Source of the DNA: Gemmatimonadota bacterium
GTDB lineage: Bacteria > Gemmatimonadota > Gemmatimonadetes > Gemmatimonadales > Gemmatimonadaceae
DNA length: 64,000 nt
Reading direction: 5' to 3'
NCBI GenBank assembly: GCA_016194585.1
Contig: JACQBG010000028.1
Coordinates: 62,001-126,000, forward strand
Shown here: piece after piece, positions 56,379-62,554 of the stretch
Layout: each line of letters starts with the position of its first letter
Position numbering within the stretch: position 1 is the first letter of the stretch
Made by a program: the position numbers and the translations under genes
The notes under the pieces: generated by a model
What the model saw: the letters and a program-made list of their open reading frames with translations, nothing else
What the model was told of the DNA's origin: nothing
Databases searched by the model: none

Positions 56379-57758
56379 GTGACTTCCACGCTCCGCCGTG
56401 CGCTCCGCCTGGCGCTCCTCGTCCTCGCCGGCGCGCCCCTCCGCGCGCAGGGCGCCGGTCCCGTCGCCCGCGAGTACCGCGCGGCCGCCGACCGCATCAT
56501 CGACGCCGCGGTCGCCGACAGTGGCGCGGCGTGGAACACGCTCGCCGCGTTCACCGATGACGCCGGGCCGCGGTTGAGCGGATCGCCGGCGCTCGAACGG
56601 GGCATCGACTGGCTCCTCGCCGAGATGAAGAAGAGCGGTCTCGAGAACGTGCACGGCGAACCGGCGATGGTGCCGCACTGGGTGCGGGGGCGCGAGTCGG
56701 CATCGCTCGTCGCGCCGCGGGCGCACCCGTTGCCGATGCTGGGCCTCGGAGGGAGCGTCGCGACGCCGAAGGGGGGGATCACCGCCGAAGTGCTCGTCGT
56801 CTCGAGCTTCGACGACCTCAAGGCGAAGGGCGCGCAGGCGAAGGGGAAGATCGTCCTCTTCGACGTGCCGTTCACGAACTACGGCCAGACGGTGGCCTAC
56901 CGCGGGGGCGCGGCGAGCGCGGTGGCTCGCGTGGGCGCCGTCGCGGCGCTCGTCCGCTCGGTGACGCCCTACTCGATGCGCACGCCGCACACCGGCGCGA
57001 TGTACTACGACAGCACGGTGAAGAAGATCCCGGCGGCGGCGCTCACCGTCGAGGACGTGCTGATGATCCACCGGATGGTGGACCGGGGCACGAAGGTGGT
57101 GGTGAAGCTCGCGATGGAGGCACGCACGCTTCCCGACGCGCCGAGCCGCAACGTCGTCGGCGAGTTGCGCGGGCGCGAGCAGCCCGGCGAGGTGGTGGTG
57201 TTCGGCGGCCACGTCGATTCGTGGGACGTGGGACAGGGCGCGATGGACGACGGCGGCGGCGTGGTTGTGGCGTGGGAGGCGATCAAGCTGCTCAAGCGGC
57301 TCGGTCTCACGCCGCGGCGGACGATCCGCGTGGTGGGGTGGACGAACGAGGAGAACGGCGATCGCGGCGGGCTGGCGTACGCCGCCGCGCACAAGGCGGA
57401 GGCAGCATCGCACGTGCTCGCGATCGAGAGCGACGGCGGCGTCTTCTCGCCGCGCGGGTTCGGCTTCACCGGGTCGGACTCGGCGCGCGCGATCGTGCGG
57501 CAGGTCTCGAGCCTCCTCGCGCGCATCGGCGCCGACTCGCTCGGGGCGAACGGCGGCGGCGCCGACATCGGCCCGATCGGCGCGCTCGGCGTGCCGATGA
57601 TGGGGCTCGAGGTGGACGGTTCGCGCTATTTCTGGTTCCACCACACCGAGGCCGACACGATGGACAAGCTCAGCCCGGCGGAGATGCAGCGGTGCGTGGC
57701 GGCGATGGCGGTGATGGCGTACGTCATCGGGGATCTGCCGGGAGGGATTCCTCGCTAG
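56379..57758 (+). CDS. Secreted M28-family zinc peptidase
   Basis: A 459-residue exported peptidase of the M28 carboxypeptidase Q/glutamate-carboxypeptidase type. Signal peptide LRLALLVLAGAPLRAQ; a PA-like insert in the middle (VLVVSSFDDLKAKGAQAKGK); zinc ligands in GGHVDSWDVGQGAMDDGGG (His, then bridging Asp), NEENGDRGGLAYAAAH (catalytic and metal Glu), AIESDGG (Asp) and WFHHTEADT (His). GTG 56379 lies 31 bp after the kinase stop on the same strand. It likely trims peptides in the periplasm or medium. The intergenic palindromic region follows. Confidence 0.92.
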   Translation: MTSTLRRALRLALLVLAGAPLRAQGAGPVAREYRAAADRIIDAAVADSGAAWNTLAAFTDDAGPRLSGSPALERGIDWLLAEMKKSGLENVHGEPAMVPHWVRGRESASLVAPRAHPLPMLGLGGSVATPKGGITAEVLVVSSFDDLKAKGAQAKGKIVLFDVPFTNYGQTVAYRGGAASAVARVGAVAALVRSVTPYSMRTPHTGAMYYDSTVKKIPAAALTVEDVLMIHRMVDRGTKVVVKLAMEARTLPDAPSRNVVGELRGREQPGEVVVFGGHVDSWDVGQGAMDDGGGVVVAWEAIKLLKRLGLTPRRTIRVVGWTNEENGDRGGLAYAAAHKAEAASHVLAIESDGGVFSPRGFGFTGSDSARAIVRQVSSLLARIGADSLGANGGGADIGPIGALGVPMMGLEVDGSRYFWFHHTEADTMDKLSPAEMQRCVAAMAVMAYVIGDLPGGIPR

Positions 57759-57766
57759 GACGGCAG

Positions 57767-57944
57767 TGGGAGGGCAAGTACCGAGCGGGGGAGCTGAAGT
57801 GCGAGGGGGAGCCGAGTGGGAGTGGGACGGCCTCCCACTGCAGTGGGAGTGGGCGTGGGCGTGGGAGCCGAGTGCGAGTCCGTCGCACTCGCACTCGGCT
57901 CCCACTCGCACTCGACCTCGCCCCCTCAAGACTTGCCCTCCCAC
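57767..57944. repeat. Nested inverted repeats, GTGGGAG/GAGTGCGAG type
   Basis: Outer arms GTGGGAGGGCAAGT (57767-57780) and its exact complement ACTTGCCCTCCCAC (57931-57944) enclose shorter inverted units: GTGGGAGCCGAGTGCGAG with CTCGCACTCGGCTCCCAC, and GAGTGGGAG/CTCCCACTGCAGTGGGAG. The interior also has imperfect direct repeats (GTGGGCGTGGGC). The whole lies between the M28 gene and the marR promoter and contains no credible gene. Confidence 0.82.
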
Positions 57945-57951
57945 GGATTGC

Positions 57952-57989
57952 TTGACGATGTAACCATTGCATTGTGAATAGTTGCATCG
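57952..57989 (+). promoter_or_regulatory. Promoter and dyad of the second marR gene
   Basis: TTGACG (57952-57957), 17 bp, TGAATA (57975-57980). Arms CGATGTAAC (57956-57964) and GTTGCATCG (57981-57989) are complementary except for one base and bracket the promoter, a plausible operator for the MarR protein encoded just downstream. Confidence 0.45.
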
Positions 57990-58001
57990 TAACGTGCGCG
58001 C

Positions 58002-58502
58002 ATGGCCAGACGACTCTCCCTGCAGGACGACATCAAGCAGACCAAGGCGTTCCGGAACCTGTCGGAAGAGTCCACGCTGAGCATCGTCCGCACCTACACG
58101 CTCATCCGGCGGGGGGTGGCGGCGGTCGTCGAGAGCGAGGGACTCACGCCGGCGCAGTACAACGTGCTGCGCATCCTGCGCGGGGCCGGCGCGCCGGGGC
58201 TGCCGACGCTCACGGTGCGCGACCGCATGATCGACGAGGCCGCGGGCATCACGCGGCTCATCGACAAGCTCGAGCGCGGCGGGCTGGTGAAGCGCGACCG
58301 CTCCGCGCCCGACCGCCGGCAGGTGTACTGCCGCATCACCGCGAAGGGGCTCGCCATGCTCAAGCGGCTCGACGTCCGCATCGCCGAGGCGGATGAGACG
58401 GGCGGCGCCGGGCTCACGCCGCGCGAGCGGAAACAGCTGCTCGTGCTCCTCGAGAAGGTGCGTGGCGCGCTCACCGACGCCGCTCCGGACGCGCGCCGAT
58501 GA
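58002..58502 (+). CDS. MarR-family transcriptional regulator
   Basis: A 166-residue winged-helix protein: IVRTYTLIRRGVAAVVESEG, LTPAQYNVLRILRGAGAPG, recognition helix RDRMIDEAAGITRLIDKLE and wing GLVKRDRSAPDRRQVYCRIT. It is similar in pattern to, but distinct from, the MarR protein at 46075 (YNVLRILRGAG occurs in both). It starts at ATG 58002, about 15 nt after the predicted transcription start, and has no clear ribosome site. The stop overlaps the next gene by ATGA, so the regulator and the 390-residue protein are coupled. Confidence 0.92.
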   Translation: MARRLSLQDDIKQTKAFRNLSEESTLSIVRTYTLIRRGVAAVVESEGLTPAQYNVLRILRGAGAPGLPTLTVRDRMIDEAAGITRLIDKLERGGLVKRDRSAPDRRQVYCRITAKGLAMLKRLDVRIAEADETGGAGLTPRERKQLLVLLEKVRGALTDAAPDARR

Positions 58503-59671
58503 CCGCGCCCGGCGGACCGCAGAAGATCATCCAGAGCCGGCCGCGCCGCGTGCAGCTCGTGCTCCGCGACGCCGAGGTGGTGCGGGGCGGTGTGTTCTTG
58601 AATGAAGGGCAGTCCCTCGGCCCCTACCTCGGCAGCCGGAAGGGCGGGTGGGTGAACGTCGTCAACGCGGAGTGGGTGGGGCAGGAGGAGACGTCGAACC
58701 ACGCCGTCATCCAGGCCGACCACATCCTGCTCGCGACGTCGCTCGACGGCGACATCCCCGTCTACGGCGCGACCGCCGCGCCGACGCCGCGCGAGGTGAT
58801 CCTCGCGCTCGAGGACGGCAGCCGGCTCCGCGGCGTGCTCCATCTCGCCGAGAAGCAGCGGCTGAGCGACTACCTCTCGGCGTGCGGCCGGTTCATCCCG
58901 CTGCTCGAGGCTGCGCGTTCCCCCCGGGATGGCACGTCCGGCGACGTGGCGGTGAACGCGGCCGCCGTGCGCACGATCAAGGACGCGAAGGTGTTCGCGC
59001 CGGGAGCGATGGAGGCGGCCGCGGACGCCGGCGGTGAGCCGAAGCCCGCCGCGCCGGCTCCGGTGAACCGCGAGGTGGTGCAGCGCGAGAGCGGGACGCT
59101 CGAAGTGCTCACGGCGGGGCGCGTTCCCGACCGGCGCGCTCCGCGGGCCGAGCCGCTCATCGCGCACCACACGCCGCCGCTCGTCGTCACGCCATCACCC
59201 GGTCCGGAGCTCACGCCGGAACAGCGCGAGTTGAACGCGTGGCTGGCGCGACACTGGCTCGTGCAGCTGGGTGCGGGGGCGCAGCTGCTCCCACCCGATC
59301 CGCGCACGCTCCCCGCGTCGCCGTCGCTCGAGGAGGTGTGGCATGCGCTCGCCACGTGCAACGAGATGGCGGATGCCGAGCTCGGCGTGCACGTCGCGGC
59401 GGGCTTCAAGTTGCCGGTCGCCGACCTCGACGACGTGATGGCGCTCGCGCTGCACGAGGTGCCTGAGCGCATCGCGCGCAAGCTGAACGCGCTCCCGCTC
59501 CGCACCGACGGCAAGGTGCTCACGCTCGCCGTCGCCGACCCGAGCTCGATGGAGATCGAGCAACAGGTCGGTTTCGTCACGCGGCAGCGGTTGCAGTTCG
59601 AGATCGCGCCCCCCGCCGAGATCCGCGGGGCGATCGACTGGCACTACGCCCAGGCCGCGCCGGCGTCCTGA
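58499..59671 (+). CDS. Protein with duplicated N-terminal domain and GspE/MshE N-terminal-like domain, 390 aa
   Basis: Architecture read from sequence: two related ~70-residue beta-rich units at the N-terminus (RRVQLVLRDAEVVRGGVFLN, and REVILALEDGSRLRGVLHL, each ending in a hydrophobic strand), then a Pro/Ala-rich linker (about 175-250), then a C-terminal region like the N-terminal domain of type II secretion/MSHA ATPases (FKLPVADLDDVMALALHEVP, ARKLNALPLRTDGKVLTLAVADP). Some MshEN domains bind cyclic di-GMP, but the RLGxxL-type motif is not obvious here. There is no ATPase domain. It overlaps a MarR gene by 4 bp. The function is unknown; a link to surface behaviour or secretion is only a guess. 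Confidence 0.78.
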   Translation: MTAPGGPQKIIQSRPRRVQLVLRDAEVVRGGVFLNEGQSLGPYLGSRKGGWVNVVNAEWVGQEETSNHAVIQADHILLATSLDGDIPVYGATAAPTPREVILALEDGSRLRGVLHLAEKQRLSDYLSACGRFIPLLEAARSPRDGTSGDVAVNAAAVRTIKDAKVFAPGAMEAAADAGGEPKPAAPAPVNREVVQRESGTLEVLTAGRVPDRRAPRAEPLIAHHTPPLVVTPSPGPELTPEQRELNAWLARHWLVQLGAGAQLLPPDPRTLPASPSLEEVWHALATCNEMADAELGVHVAAGFKLPVADLDDVMALALHEVPERIARKLNALPLRTDGKVLTLAVADPSSMEIEQQVGFVTRQRLQFEIAPPAEIRGAIDWHYAQAAPAS

Positions 59672-59693
59672 GCGCATGCGGGCGGCGGCGCCG

Positions 59694-60044
59694 CTACGGC
59701 GCCGGCGTGCGCGCGAGTCCCGCGACGCCGCGGGCGACCAGCGCCGACGTGAGCGCGAGCAATCCCGCGAAGCAGAGCGTCACCGCGTAGACGCCCACCG
59801 GGCGGATGGTGAGAACGCCCGCGAGCACCGACGCGAGATGTCCGAGCGGGCCGCGGGCCGCGTCCCAGAGGAGGAGCGCCCCCCACGCGACCATGGCCGC
59901 GAGCGCGGCCACCGTCGCGCCGCCGCGTTCGCGCGACGTGATGACGCCCATCGCGGCGCCGACGAGCGGCACGCCCCACCAGCCGATGGCGAACGTCGCC
60001 GCGGCGAACGCCGCCGCGACCAGCACGAATCTGAGCAGTCGCAC
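59694..60044 (-). CDS. Small integral membrane protein, 116 aa
   Basis: GTG 60044 lies 2 bp after the stop of the acylase gene, so it is translationally coupled to it. It has about four hydrophobic segments: FVLVAAAFAAATFAIGWWG, VAALAAMVAWGALLL, GHLASVLAGVLTIR and VYAVTLCFAGLLALTSALVA. No family is recognised. The longer open frame seen through this region is the acylase gene in a wrong frame. It might be a helper or anchor for the acylase, though no motif shows this. Confidence 0.68.
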   Translation of the reverse strand: MRLLRFVLVAAAFAAATFAIGWWGVPLVGAAMGVITSRERGGATVAALAAMVAWGALLLWDAARGPLGHLASVLAGVLTIRPVGVYAVTLCFAGLLALTSALVARGVAGLARTPAP

Positions 60045-60046
60045 GG

Positions 60047-62554
60047 TCAGCGCTCCGGCGTGAGGGTGAGGATCGAGCGCAGTTGCGCGCCCTTCAGTTC
60101 GTCGGCCGTATGCGGGAAGCGGAGCGTGTCGAGCTGCCCCGCGGTCCACTTCGCGAGCCGGTCGTCGTAGCGCGAGCTCGCCGGATTCCCCGACTGCCCG
60201 CCCGGATAGATGCCCCACGCCTTCACCTCGGGGCCGAGGTCGACGACCATCCGCCAACTGGCCCCGTGCGTGCCGTCGCCGATCGACGGGCTGAGCGTCG
60301 CCGGCGCCGACGGCACCTCGAGGTCGAGCCGCGAGAGTGCCGGGATGCGCAGCAGGTGCCAGATGTTGGAGTGGCGGATGCGCGACCAGCGCCAGGCGGG
60401 GCCGGCGGGGCCGTACTGCTGGAGGAGCGAGCCGTATGCGGCGGCCAGACTCTGGCGGAGGATCATGTCGCGGTCCTCGACGACGTCCTTCGTCGCCCGC
60501 ACGTCCCACCATGGACTCTTCGGGTCCTGGAGAAGTTCGGCGAGGACCATCGTGTTGGGGGTCGCGATGCGGCGGGTGCGGTCGCCCGGCACCGCGCCGA
60601 CGACCTGGAACTCGTCCCACGTGCGGCGCGACAGCTCGTTCACCGCCGCGTCGTAGAGCGCCGCGCGCTCGTTCTCCTTGGTGAAGTTGCCGTCCCATTC
60701 GCGCAGCAGCCGCGCGGCGCGTGCGAGCACGGAGTCGCCCGCCGACGCGGGATCGTCGGCGGCGTGCAGGAACGCGGGGAGGAAGAGCCCGACCTGCTCG
60801 CTCCGCGGGTCGGTCTGGAAGCGGCGCATGTCGTCGGGCGTGACCGAGGAGTCGGCGCGAAGGAGCGCGTTGATGCGCATGGCGCGCCATGGCGTGGGCC
60901 AGTCCCAGCCGAAGTAGCGTGGGTCGACGCGCGGGTCCTTGGGTTGCTGGTTCGCCGACGCGAGGTAGCCCTGCGCGGGATCCACCGACTGCGGATAGTC
61001 GGCGAGCGGCAGGAATCCCTTCCAATCGTTGGCGCTGCTGCTGCCGTCGAAGAGGAGGTCGCCCGTCGGGTGCGACGCCGGACGCACGGGATAGTGGCCC
61101 GTCGAGCGGATGGCGATGTGCCCACCGCGGTCGGCCGTGAGCACGTTCTGCGCCGGCGTGGCGTACGGTTCCCACGCTTTGAGCACGTCGAACACCGACT
61201 TGGCGCCGTTCGCGTTGCGGAACGCCTCGAGCACCGGACCCACCGACGACTCGGTCACGAGCCAGCGGCGCGAGATCCAGCGCGCGCCGGCGTGCAGCAT
61301 CGGGCCGCGATGCGTGTGGTAGAGCGTGTCGACGCCGATCGTCTCGCCGCGCTTGCCGTGGTAGGTCTCGATGCGCGTGACGAGCGGCTTCCACTCGCCG
61401 TCGACCTGGTACTTCGTCGGGTGCGCGGGGTCGTCGACCGTCTCCACGTAGTAGTCGGCGACGTCGGCGCCGGTGTTGGTCTCGGTCCACGCCACGTCGC
61501 GATTGAATCCGATCGCGACGAGCTGCGAGCCAGCGAATGTGACGCCGTACGCATCGAGCGAATCGGGCACGACGAGGTGCGCCTCGTACCACACCGAGGG
61601 GAGCGAGAGCGCGAGGTGCGGGTCGCCGGCGAGCAGGGCGTGGCCGTTGGCCGAGCGCTTGGGCGACACCGCCCAGTTGTTGCTGCCGACGACGACCTCG
61701 CCGTTCGGGCGGTCGGCGTCAGCGAGCGTCGCCGCCTGCTCGAGCCCCATCGCGAGGGCGAGCTTGGCGCTGTCGGTGGGCGCCGGCGCGGCGAGCTTGG
61801 CGAAGTCGAGTCGCGGCGCGTGCTGGCCGTTCGGCTGGATCGGCTCCTGGATCGGGGCGTTCTCGGGGAAGAGCTGCGCGACCGCGGCCTTGCCGACGAG
61901 CGCCTCGGCCACCGAACGCTGTAGTTCCCCCTCGCTGTAGGCGAGCGTGAGCCCCATGCGCGCCTGGAGGTACGCGGTGTACACGGGGAGCCAGCGCATC
62001 GGCGTGCGGCCGAGGAGGTGGTACTCGAACGGCACGTCGGCCGGCGTCATCTGGTCGATGTACGCGTTCACGCCGTCGGCGTAGGCCGCCATCGCGCGCC
62101 CCGCCGTCGATTTCGGGTCGACCTGCGCGGCCAGCTTCTCGGCGTACCAGGCGAGCCCCTGCGCGCGCGCCTGCCGGTCGAGCGGCAGGGCGCGGGCGCC
62201 GGCGAGCTCGCTCAGCGTGCCGGCGACGGCGCGCGTCTGCATCTCCATCTCGAACAACCGGTCGCGCGCGTGCACGTAGCCGAGCGCGCGATAGAGGTCG
62301 TCGCCGTTCCGGGCGAAGACGTGCGGCACGCCGCGGTCGTCGTAGCGCACGTCCACGGGTGCGATGAGCCCTGGGATGCGCGCGCTCGCTTGCGCGGGGA
62401 GTTCCGCGCGCGCCGCGACGGCCCACACGCCGTGCACGGGATCGAGGAAGCGGCCGAGCGGCGGCAGCGAACCGAGCGGCCGCGCGCCGACGTACAGCGC
62501 GGCGGCGAGGACGGGGACGGCAAGGAGCGTCGAGAGGGAGGGACGGGTGGCCAT
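60047..62554 (-). CDS. Penicillin acylase family (Ntn-hydrolase) enzyme
   Basis: An 835-residue precursor of the penicillin G acylase/acyl-homoserine-lactone acylase family. The signal/anchor is LLAVPVLAAALYVGA. The alpha part shows VRYDDRGVPHVFARNGDDLY and RDRLFEMEMQTRAVAGTLSE. Self-cleavage would expose Ser291 in VVGSNNWAVSP as the N-terminal nucleophile of the beta subunit, close to Ser290 of the E. coli penicillin acylase precursor. Later LLAGDPHLALSLPSVWYEAHL and the beta-chain TNTGADVADYYVE motif follow. The natural substrate (acyl-amide, possibly quorum signals) cannot be told. The small membrane protein gene follows at 2 bp. Confidence 0.93.
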   Translation of the reverse strand: MATRPSLSTLLAVPVLAAALYVGARPLGSLPPLGRFLDPVHGVWAVAARAELPAQASARIPGLIAPVDVRYDDRGVPHVFARNGDDLYRALGYVHARDRLFEMEMQTRAVAGTLSELAGARALPLDRQARAQGLAWYAEKLAAQVDPKSTAGRAMAAYADGVNAYIDQMTPADVPFEYHLLGRTPMRWLPVYTAYLQARMGLTLAYSEGELQRSVAEALVGKAAVAQLFPENAPIQEPIQPNGQHAPRLDFAKLAAPAPTDSAKLALAMGLEQAATLADADRPNGEVVVGSNNWAVSPKRSANGHALLAGDPHLALSLPSVWYEAHLVVPDSLDAYGVTFAGSQLVAIGFNRDVAWTETNTGADVADYYVETVDDPAHPTKYQVDGEWKPLVTRIETYHGKRGETIGVDTLYHTHRGPMLHAGARWISRRWLVTESSVGPVLEAFRNANGAKSVFDVLKAWEPYATPAQNVLTADRGGHIAIRSTGHYPVRPASHPTGDLLFDGSSSANDWKGFLPLADYPQSVDPAQGYLASANQQPKDPRVDPRYFGWDWPTPWRAMRINALLRADSSVTPDDMRRFQTDPRSEQVGLFLPAFLHAADDPASAGDSVLARAARLLREWDGNFTKENERAALYDAAVNELSRRTWDEFQVVGAVPGDRTRRIATPNTMVLAELLQDPKSPWWDVRATKDVVEDRDMILRQSLAAAYGSLLQQYGPAGPAWRWSRIRHSNIWHLLRIPALSRLDLEVPSAPATLSPSIGDGTHGASWRMVVDLGPEVKAWGIYPGGQSGNPASSRYDDRLAKWTAGQLDTLRFPHTADELKGAQLRSILTLTPER

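Follow-up and report, generated by a model that had tools for sequence, protein, structure and literature searches.

The analysed window is a 64,000-nt stretch of contig JACQBG010000028.1 of a Gemmatimonadota bacterium, the genome of which is designated G000. Two ORFs with ATG start codons lie side by side on its forward strand: one (58002–58502; 166 aa) encodes a MarR-family regulator, and the other (58499–59671) encodes a 390-aa protein and begins inside the MarR stop codon. As initially annotated, the two ORFs overlap by ATGA. The MarR ORF matches PF01047 (E-value, 1.9 × 10−7; 31.3 bits versus a cut-off of 24.6) and PF12802 (27.7 versus 27 bits), and reached none of the NCBIfam equivalog cut-offs, the best model being HpaR (46.5 versus 121.2 bits). 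The 390-aa ORF is considered to be a real gene and not a chance ORF, because nine relatives sharing 41–61% amino acid identity with it were found (alignment A1). A scan of positions 57700–60100 for promoters and terminators returned none, and the comparison with PHROGs resulted in a single weak match (E-value, 0.024).

Profile searches with both halves of the 390-aa protein, as suggested in the initial annotation, revealed a DUF6812-like N-terminal half (repeat 2) and an MshEN-type C-terminal half. On the forward strand, the gene comprises repeat 1 (58538–58768; residues 14–90), repeat 2 (58778–59014; residues 94–172), a length-variable linker that is heavily gapped in A1 (59015–59245; about residues 173–249), a remnant of MshEN_N (59246–59404; about residues 250–302), which was delimited by alignment with the genome's own ATPases L004, L005 and L006 and lacks the c-di-GMP motif in the motif scan, and an MshEN_C part (59405–59659; residues 303–387).

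The alignments of repeat 1 (A3) and repeat 2 were compared by hhalign, which gave a probability of 95.6 and an E-value of 1.1 × 10−8 over 58 columns; judged by these profiles, one small domain is truly repeated in tandem in the N-terminal half. Repeat 2 of the 390-aa protein scored 23.1–25.4 bits against DUF6812 (PF20660), slightly under the curated cut-off of 27.1, which was exceeded by the relatives from G007 (30.9 bits), G015 (29.6 bits) and, with frame neighbours included, G002 (27.5 bits); those from G013 and G041 remained under it. All of the 11 repeat-2 rows matched DUF6812 at E ≤ 10 (best E-value, 4.9 × 10−8), and no LSM model was found among the Pfam matches of the repeat rows at the same threshold. 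Repeat 1 gave nothing convincing against Pfam (best E-value, 0.11) and no PDB match at E ≤ 10.

Structure prediction, also proposed in the initial annotation, was applied to repeat 2 and to the whole protein; the AlphaFold model of the latter (two sequences; pLDDT, 32.5) was set aside. The repeat-2 prediction from four rows (both repeats of the 390-aa protein and of its relative L001) resulted in one confident model out of five (pLDDT, 77.8; pTM, 0.62; 42.8–50.1 pLDDT for the other four) with the order strand-strand-helix-strand-strand-strand. Foldseek found no match to this model at E ≤ 0.001, and the best hit was 6am0_D (E-value, 0.011; TM, 0.58/0.69). According to their descriptions, the best 50 of the 508 matches (E ≤ 10) are Sm/LSm proteins or complexes of the spliceosomal, snRNP, decapping or a similar kind, in which we take the matched chains to be the Sm/LSm ones; the less plain rows, two designed nanoparticle entries and one NatC complex, presumably contain LSm parts as well. 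VIA-align over the Foldseek list gave a Z-score of 7.1 for 6am0_D (rmsd 2.9 over 63 residues), where a value below 8 may reflect no more than a common arrangement, and among the matches listed its rows are Sm/LSm, spliceosomal or Gemin entries.

At the sequence level, the repeat-2 profile matched three PDB sequences at E ≤ 10, including LSm2 (E-value, 0.8) and an archaeal SmAP (E-value, 1.2), so that significant similarity to Sm/LSm proteins was not reached. The four-row profile A6 gave seven PDB matches at the same threshold, in which LSm2 (0.5) and SmAP (0.85) are mixed with five unrelated proteins, adenosylhomocysteinase being the best overall (0.14); the Sm signal by sequence is therefore weak. 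Repeat 2 may resemble Sm/LSm proteins in its predicted barrel, but differs from them in its sequence, the similarity of which is below significance, and in the helix placed between strands 2 and 3 of the model. Overall, we lean slightly towards an Sm-like fold. If DUF6812 can indeed be read in this way, a fold would be assigned to a family on which no paper was found in the literature searched; in that literature, no paper combining MshEN and Gemmatimonas was found, and MshEN and Sm-like occurred together in a single paper, an Hfq review.

Such barrels might form a ring or bind RNA, with the MshEN-like part serving for oligomerisation or localisation, which would make the protein a nucleic-acid or multi-protein scaffold. 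This is in line with the rows listed by Foldseek and VIA-align, which for repeat 2 consist of Sm/LSm proteins or complexes, and with LSm2 and SmAP accounting for two of the three PDB matches of its profile; however, the structural scores (Foldseek E-value of 0.011 or worse, Z-score of 7.1 at best) and the profile E-values (0.8 and 1.2) are modest, LSm2 and SmAP make up only two of the seven matches of the four-row profile and are not the best of them, and repeat 1 has no PDB match at E ≤ 10. A scaffold of this kind is therefore regarded as unlikely.

The whole-length gene was found in 10 of the 149 genomes of one set and in 15 of the 395 phylum genomes of the other, the window's own genome being counted in both. 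The union comprises 16 carriers: G000, G002, G005, G007, G013, G015, G041, G067, G077, G087, G186, G206, G253, G255, G269 and G391. Locus L001 carries the gene in the position that it has in G087 and was counted once, as G087, while half-only matches, such as that of G241 (profile positions 2–181), were left out of the count. All of the carriers belong to the window's family and represent four genera (6, 4, 3 and 3 genomes); within the searches made, the combination of DUF6812-like domains with MshEN is found only in this family. Alignment A1 contains the ten carriers from the 149-genome set, the other six being outside it, and shows numerous invariant positions, both in the N-terminal half and around the remnant of MshEN_N. 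The genes of G013 and G186 were each recovered in the 395-genome search as two collinear pieces that share a frame. In the relative from G005 (L040, 7956–8891), the frame stops early within the MshEN part, which represents either a broken gene or an assembly error.

Of the 18 genomes that represent the window's genus in the 149-genome set, 17 are listed with a paralog limited to the two repeats. The copy in the window's genome (G000:C50:88594) has the same tandem repeat and shares 37% identity with the 390-aa protein, but has no MshEN match. It adjoins genes for an M61 peptidase and an amidohydrolase, and an M61-type ORF, identified from its translation, is located beside the paralog of G084 as well.

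The patchy occurrence (15 of 395 phylum genomes) and the early stop of the G005 frame would also suit a lineage-specific domain shuffle that has little function and is being lost. Against this, the relatives retain 41–61% identity, and since these relatives, which are spread over four genera, conserve many positions, the gene appears to be under selection; a product in decay is thus quite improbable.

The initial annotation regarded the coupling to MarR as an unusual property of the protein. The ATGA overlap is present in the window, but the coupling is not lasting: MarR is located directly upstream of the gene in 4 of the 16 carriers (G000, G007, G013 and G015), which corresponds to four of the six carriers in the window's genus and none of the ten outside. 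The junction is an ATGA overlap in G000, a GTGA overlap in G007 and G013, and a 23-base gap in G015. In G077, about 4.3 kb separate the gene from an upstream MarR, the interval being occupied by a hybrid kinase and one more ORF, and in G391 the coordinates place MarR about 4.7 kb upstream; for G186, G269 and G391, the neighbourhoods were assessed from coordinates only. No adjacent MarR was found in the remaining ten carriers by searches with the window MarR (E ≤ 0.001 or E ≤ 0.01), which would miss a very different MarR.

In the window, the pair is flanked by genes for an M28 peptidase and a penicillin amidase (by Pfam in the window, and by reading in the relatives). This slot holds both genes in G000, G007 and G015, MarR alone in G006, G008 and G012, for which no whole-length gene is listed, and the gene alone in G002, where it follows the M28-type gene by 57 bases and no such MarR was found in the genome. 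The pair of G013 is situated near a contig end. In L001, the gene is located between LepA and DUF58 genes, as it is, by reading, in G041 and G067, while in other carriers it is found near varied genes, peptidases among them. A fixed MarR-gene operon was thus rejected, given adjacency in 4 of 16 carriers and the occurrence of each gene alone in the shared slot; the neighbourhood survey called for in the initial annotation did not reveal a stable partnership.

An inverted repeat, ACGATGTAAC-N16-GTTGCATCGT, is located just upstream of MarR on the forward strand (57955–57990). The pattern, which was drawn from the site itself, has one match in the window and none in 100 shuffles, and the repeat is a possible MarR operator. 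It differs in sequence from the palindrome ATAGTTG-N6-CAACTAT found directly upstream of marR in G007 (L036, 6058–6077) and G013 (L039), which may likewise serve as an operator. As a half-site, ATAGTTGCA has one window match versus 0.02 expected, the motif having been chosen after the sites were seen, and no site of this type was found in G015 or G012 within the stretch read. A different palindromic element, an interspersed repeat of ~180 bp, occupies positions 57766–57944 between the M28 peptidase gene and marR. Its arms (57766–57839 and 57871–57944) are 82% complementary, and it gave at least 47 matches (40 of the 54 candidates were scored), which merge to at least 23 distinct places of the genome. 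Four copies, including that of the window, are near full length, while the rest are mostly single ends; the element looks like a REP/MITE-type one. The gaps preceding marR in G006 and G008 look different from it.

A sensor unit in which the protein modulates MarR or is controlled by it, with one common ligand, would be consistent with the overlaps in the window, G007 and G013, the short gap in G015, the adjacency in most genus carriers and the inverted repeat ahead of MarR. Such a unit is distinctly doubtful in view of the lack of an adjacent MarR in the ten carriers outside the genus, and of MarR alone in the slot of three genomes and the gene alone in that of G002. MarR seems to have no part in what the protein does, and in some members of the genus it would merely share a transcript with the gene; the architecture is real, and the link to the regulator is confined to some members of a single genus.

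The resemblance of the C-terminal part to MshEN, the absence of which would have refuted the initial annotation, is supported by sequence. Residues 303–387 form a genuine MshEN domain and match PF05157 with an E-value of 2.5 × 10−18 (66.3 bits versus a cut-off of 23.1), and nine of the ten members of A1 have this match, the tenth presumably being the G005 row with the early stop. Searched against PDB, the C-terminal half alone matched PilB (E-value, 2 × 10−5) and MshE (5htl; 0.0027), and the profile of the 390-aa protein with its nine relatives improved these values to 2.6 × 10−11 and 5.6 × 10−6, respectively. Profile A5 includes ATPase rows, which raise its score, and its PDB result was therefore not counted as evidence for the fusion. 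The 390-aa protein has no T2SSE (PF00437) match at E ≤ 1, and the NCBIfam PilB model is covered only in its N-terminal part (32.8 versus 675.65 bits). The initial description of two copies of a small domain joined to the N-terminal domain of an ATPase, with the ATPase itself missing, is thus borne out by the hhalign comparison, the PF05157 score and the lack of T2SSE. Four of the five PF05157 matches of this genome (E ≤ 0.01) are in T2SSE ATPases, the 390-aa protein being the sole exception. The nearest MshEN part is that of a receiver-fused T2SSE ATPase (C45:51985; E-value, 6.0 × 10−18), followed by that of a second receiver-fused ATPase (C41; 1.0 × 10−10) and of PilB (4.9 × 10−6).

According to the available parts of the literature, MshEN_N carries two 24-residue c-di-GMP motifs with a five-residue spacer (PMC5013675), the first position of which has since been widened (PMC11731258). 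The relaxed motif was absent from all ten members of A1, which represent 10 of the 16 carriers and include one truncated protein. The genome's own PilB served as a positive control and contains the motif twice, starting at residues 11 and 40, with the spacing of five. The strict motif was found neither in the ten members nor in this PilB; the strict pattern is thus uninformative here, and only the relaxed one is controlled. The relaxed motif is also missing from the MshEN parts of both receiver-fused ATPases (L004 and L005), and motif-free MshEN parts therefore already exist in motor-type proteins. Given seven GGDEF matches in the genome, the bacterium probably makes c-di-GMP. The initial suggestion of a ligand sensor did not hold for c-di-GMP: since the motif is missing in the protein and its nine relatives and present twice in PilB, a c-di-GMP sensor is unlikely, and so, as far as the motif scan can tell, is any reading of c-di-GMP by the protein in the known way. 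A receptor in which MshEN would bind c-di-GMP and switch the N-terminal half, as implied by the binding assay proposed in the initial annotation, is accordingly given very little weight: despite the MshEN domain, the GGDEF matches and the view, in the accessible text of PMC5013675, that perfect motif conservation may not be required, neither motif copy is recognisable in the protein and its nine relatives, the genome's own PilB has both, and, according to PMC11731258, c-di-GMP is not bound by the GSPII-A domain of PilF, in which one motif is near-perfect and the other degenerate.

The PF05157 match in the 390-aa protein covers MshEN_C. In the genome's PilB, the model spans residues 64–151, and both binding motifs start outside it; since they precede the span, PF05157 alone is unsafe for receptor prediction, and caution is needed in calling c-di-GMP receptors from it. 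MshEN is generally interpreted as a receptor for c-di-GMP, and a conserved motif-free MshEN outside ATPases would mean that the fold is a plain docking module too.

Compared with the MshE/PilB/PilF ATPases (PF05157; PDB 5htl, 5tsg, 6olj), the 390-aa protein is alike in its C-terminal part by sequence, but it has no ATPase, carries MshEN at the C-terminus and lacks the relaxed c-di-GMP motif. The receiver-fused ATPases L004 and L005 are likewise motif-free and hold the nearest MshEN parts in the genome, but differ in carrying T2SSE and receiver domains. Fusions of MshEN to REC, HD-GYP, CheA, CheX, cyclase and kinase domains are described in the portion of PMC5013675 available, which represents the same use of MshEN outside classic motors, with a DUF6812-like partner here; DUF6812 is not mentioned as a partner in that portion. 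The domain combination is new, yet a variant of the already known shuffling of MshEN.

As the best explanation, we tentatively propose that the protein may be a c-di-GMP-blind, non-enzymatic adaptor that docks at, or competes for, the partner of ATPase N-domains. The protein, which is probably cytoplasmic, would present two DUF6812-type domains, possibly Sm/LSm-like barrels, followed by a flexible linker and an MshEN-like domain that has lost the c-di-GMP motif and kept the fold by which pilus or secretion ATPases probably meet their partners. It could thereby dock on or compete for that partner, e.g., a stator of PilM/GspL type, independently of c-di-GMP. The adaptor idea, already raised in the initial annotation, fits the account of PilB N-domains in PMC11656802, according to which PilB probably contacts the stator through its N1 domain, PilZ binds this domain in X. 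citri, and the ATPases for extension and retraction compete for stator binding. Such competition could be joined by an N1-like domain that is free and lacks the messenger motif, or this domain could bridge to another partner via the barrels.

The genome also holds PilB and a T2SSE ATPase adjoining a secretin-like ORF (named by reading). PilM_2 has a match as well (E-value, 3.2 × 10−60), but this family is not specific to pili, because it also matches in 9 of 14 control genomes. The missing linkage to pilus genes and the varying neighbours (M28 peptidase, penicillin amidase, LepA and DUF58, among others) speak against the adaptor reading: within the few kb around the gene that were read in translation, excluding G186, G269 and G391, no cluster of pil or gsp genes was identified. 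Since only 15 of the 395 phylum genomes have the gene, pili do not need the protein, and the patchy distribution together with the missing linkage counts against a core role. A bolder version, in which DUF6812 is a so far unrecognised bacterial Sm/LSm-like domain and the protein a ring or scaffold competitor showing a c-di-GMP-blind motor N-domain to the pilus or secretion stator, is rather improbable; if true, it would uncouple motor docking from the second messenger.

Two loci with motor-type relatives of the MshEN part deserve mention. L004 (G000:C45:50740–52395), which encodes a T2SSE ATPase with an MshEN part and a C-terminal receiver, is located ~68 kb from the 390-aa gene on the same contig. 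The T2SSE match of the receiver-fused ATPase encoded in L005 (1468–3387; G000:C41) is split, with profile positions 170–246 missing, and this protein may represent a motor in which the catalytic domain has been partly lost.
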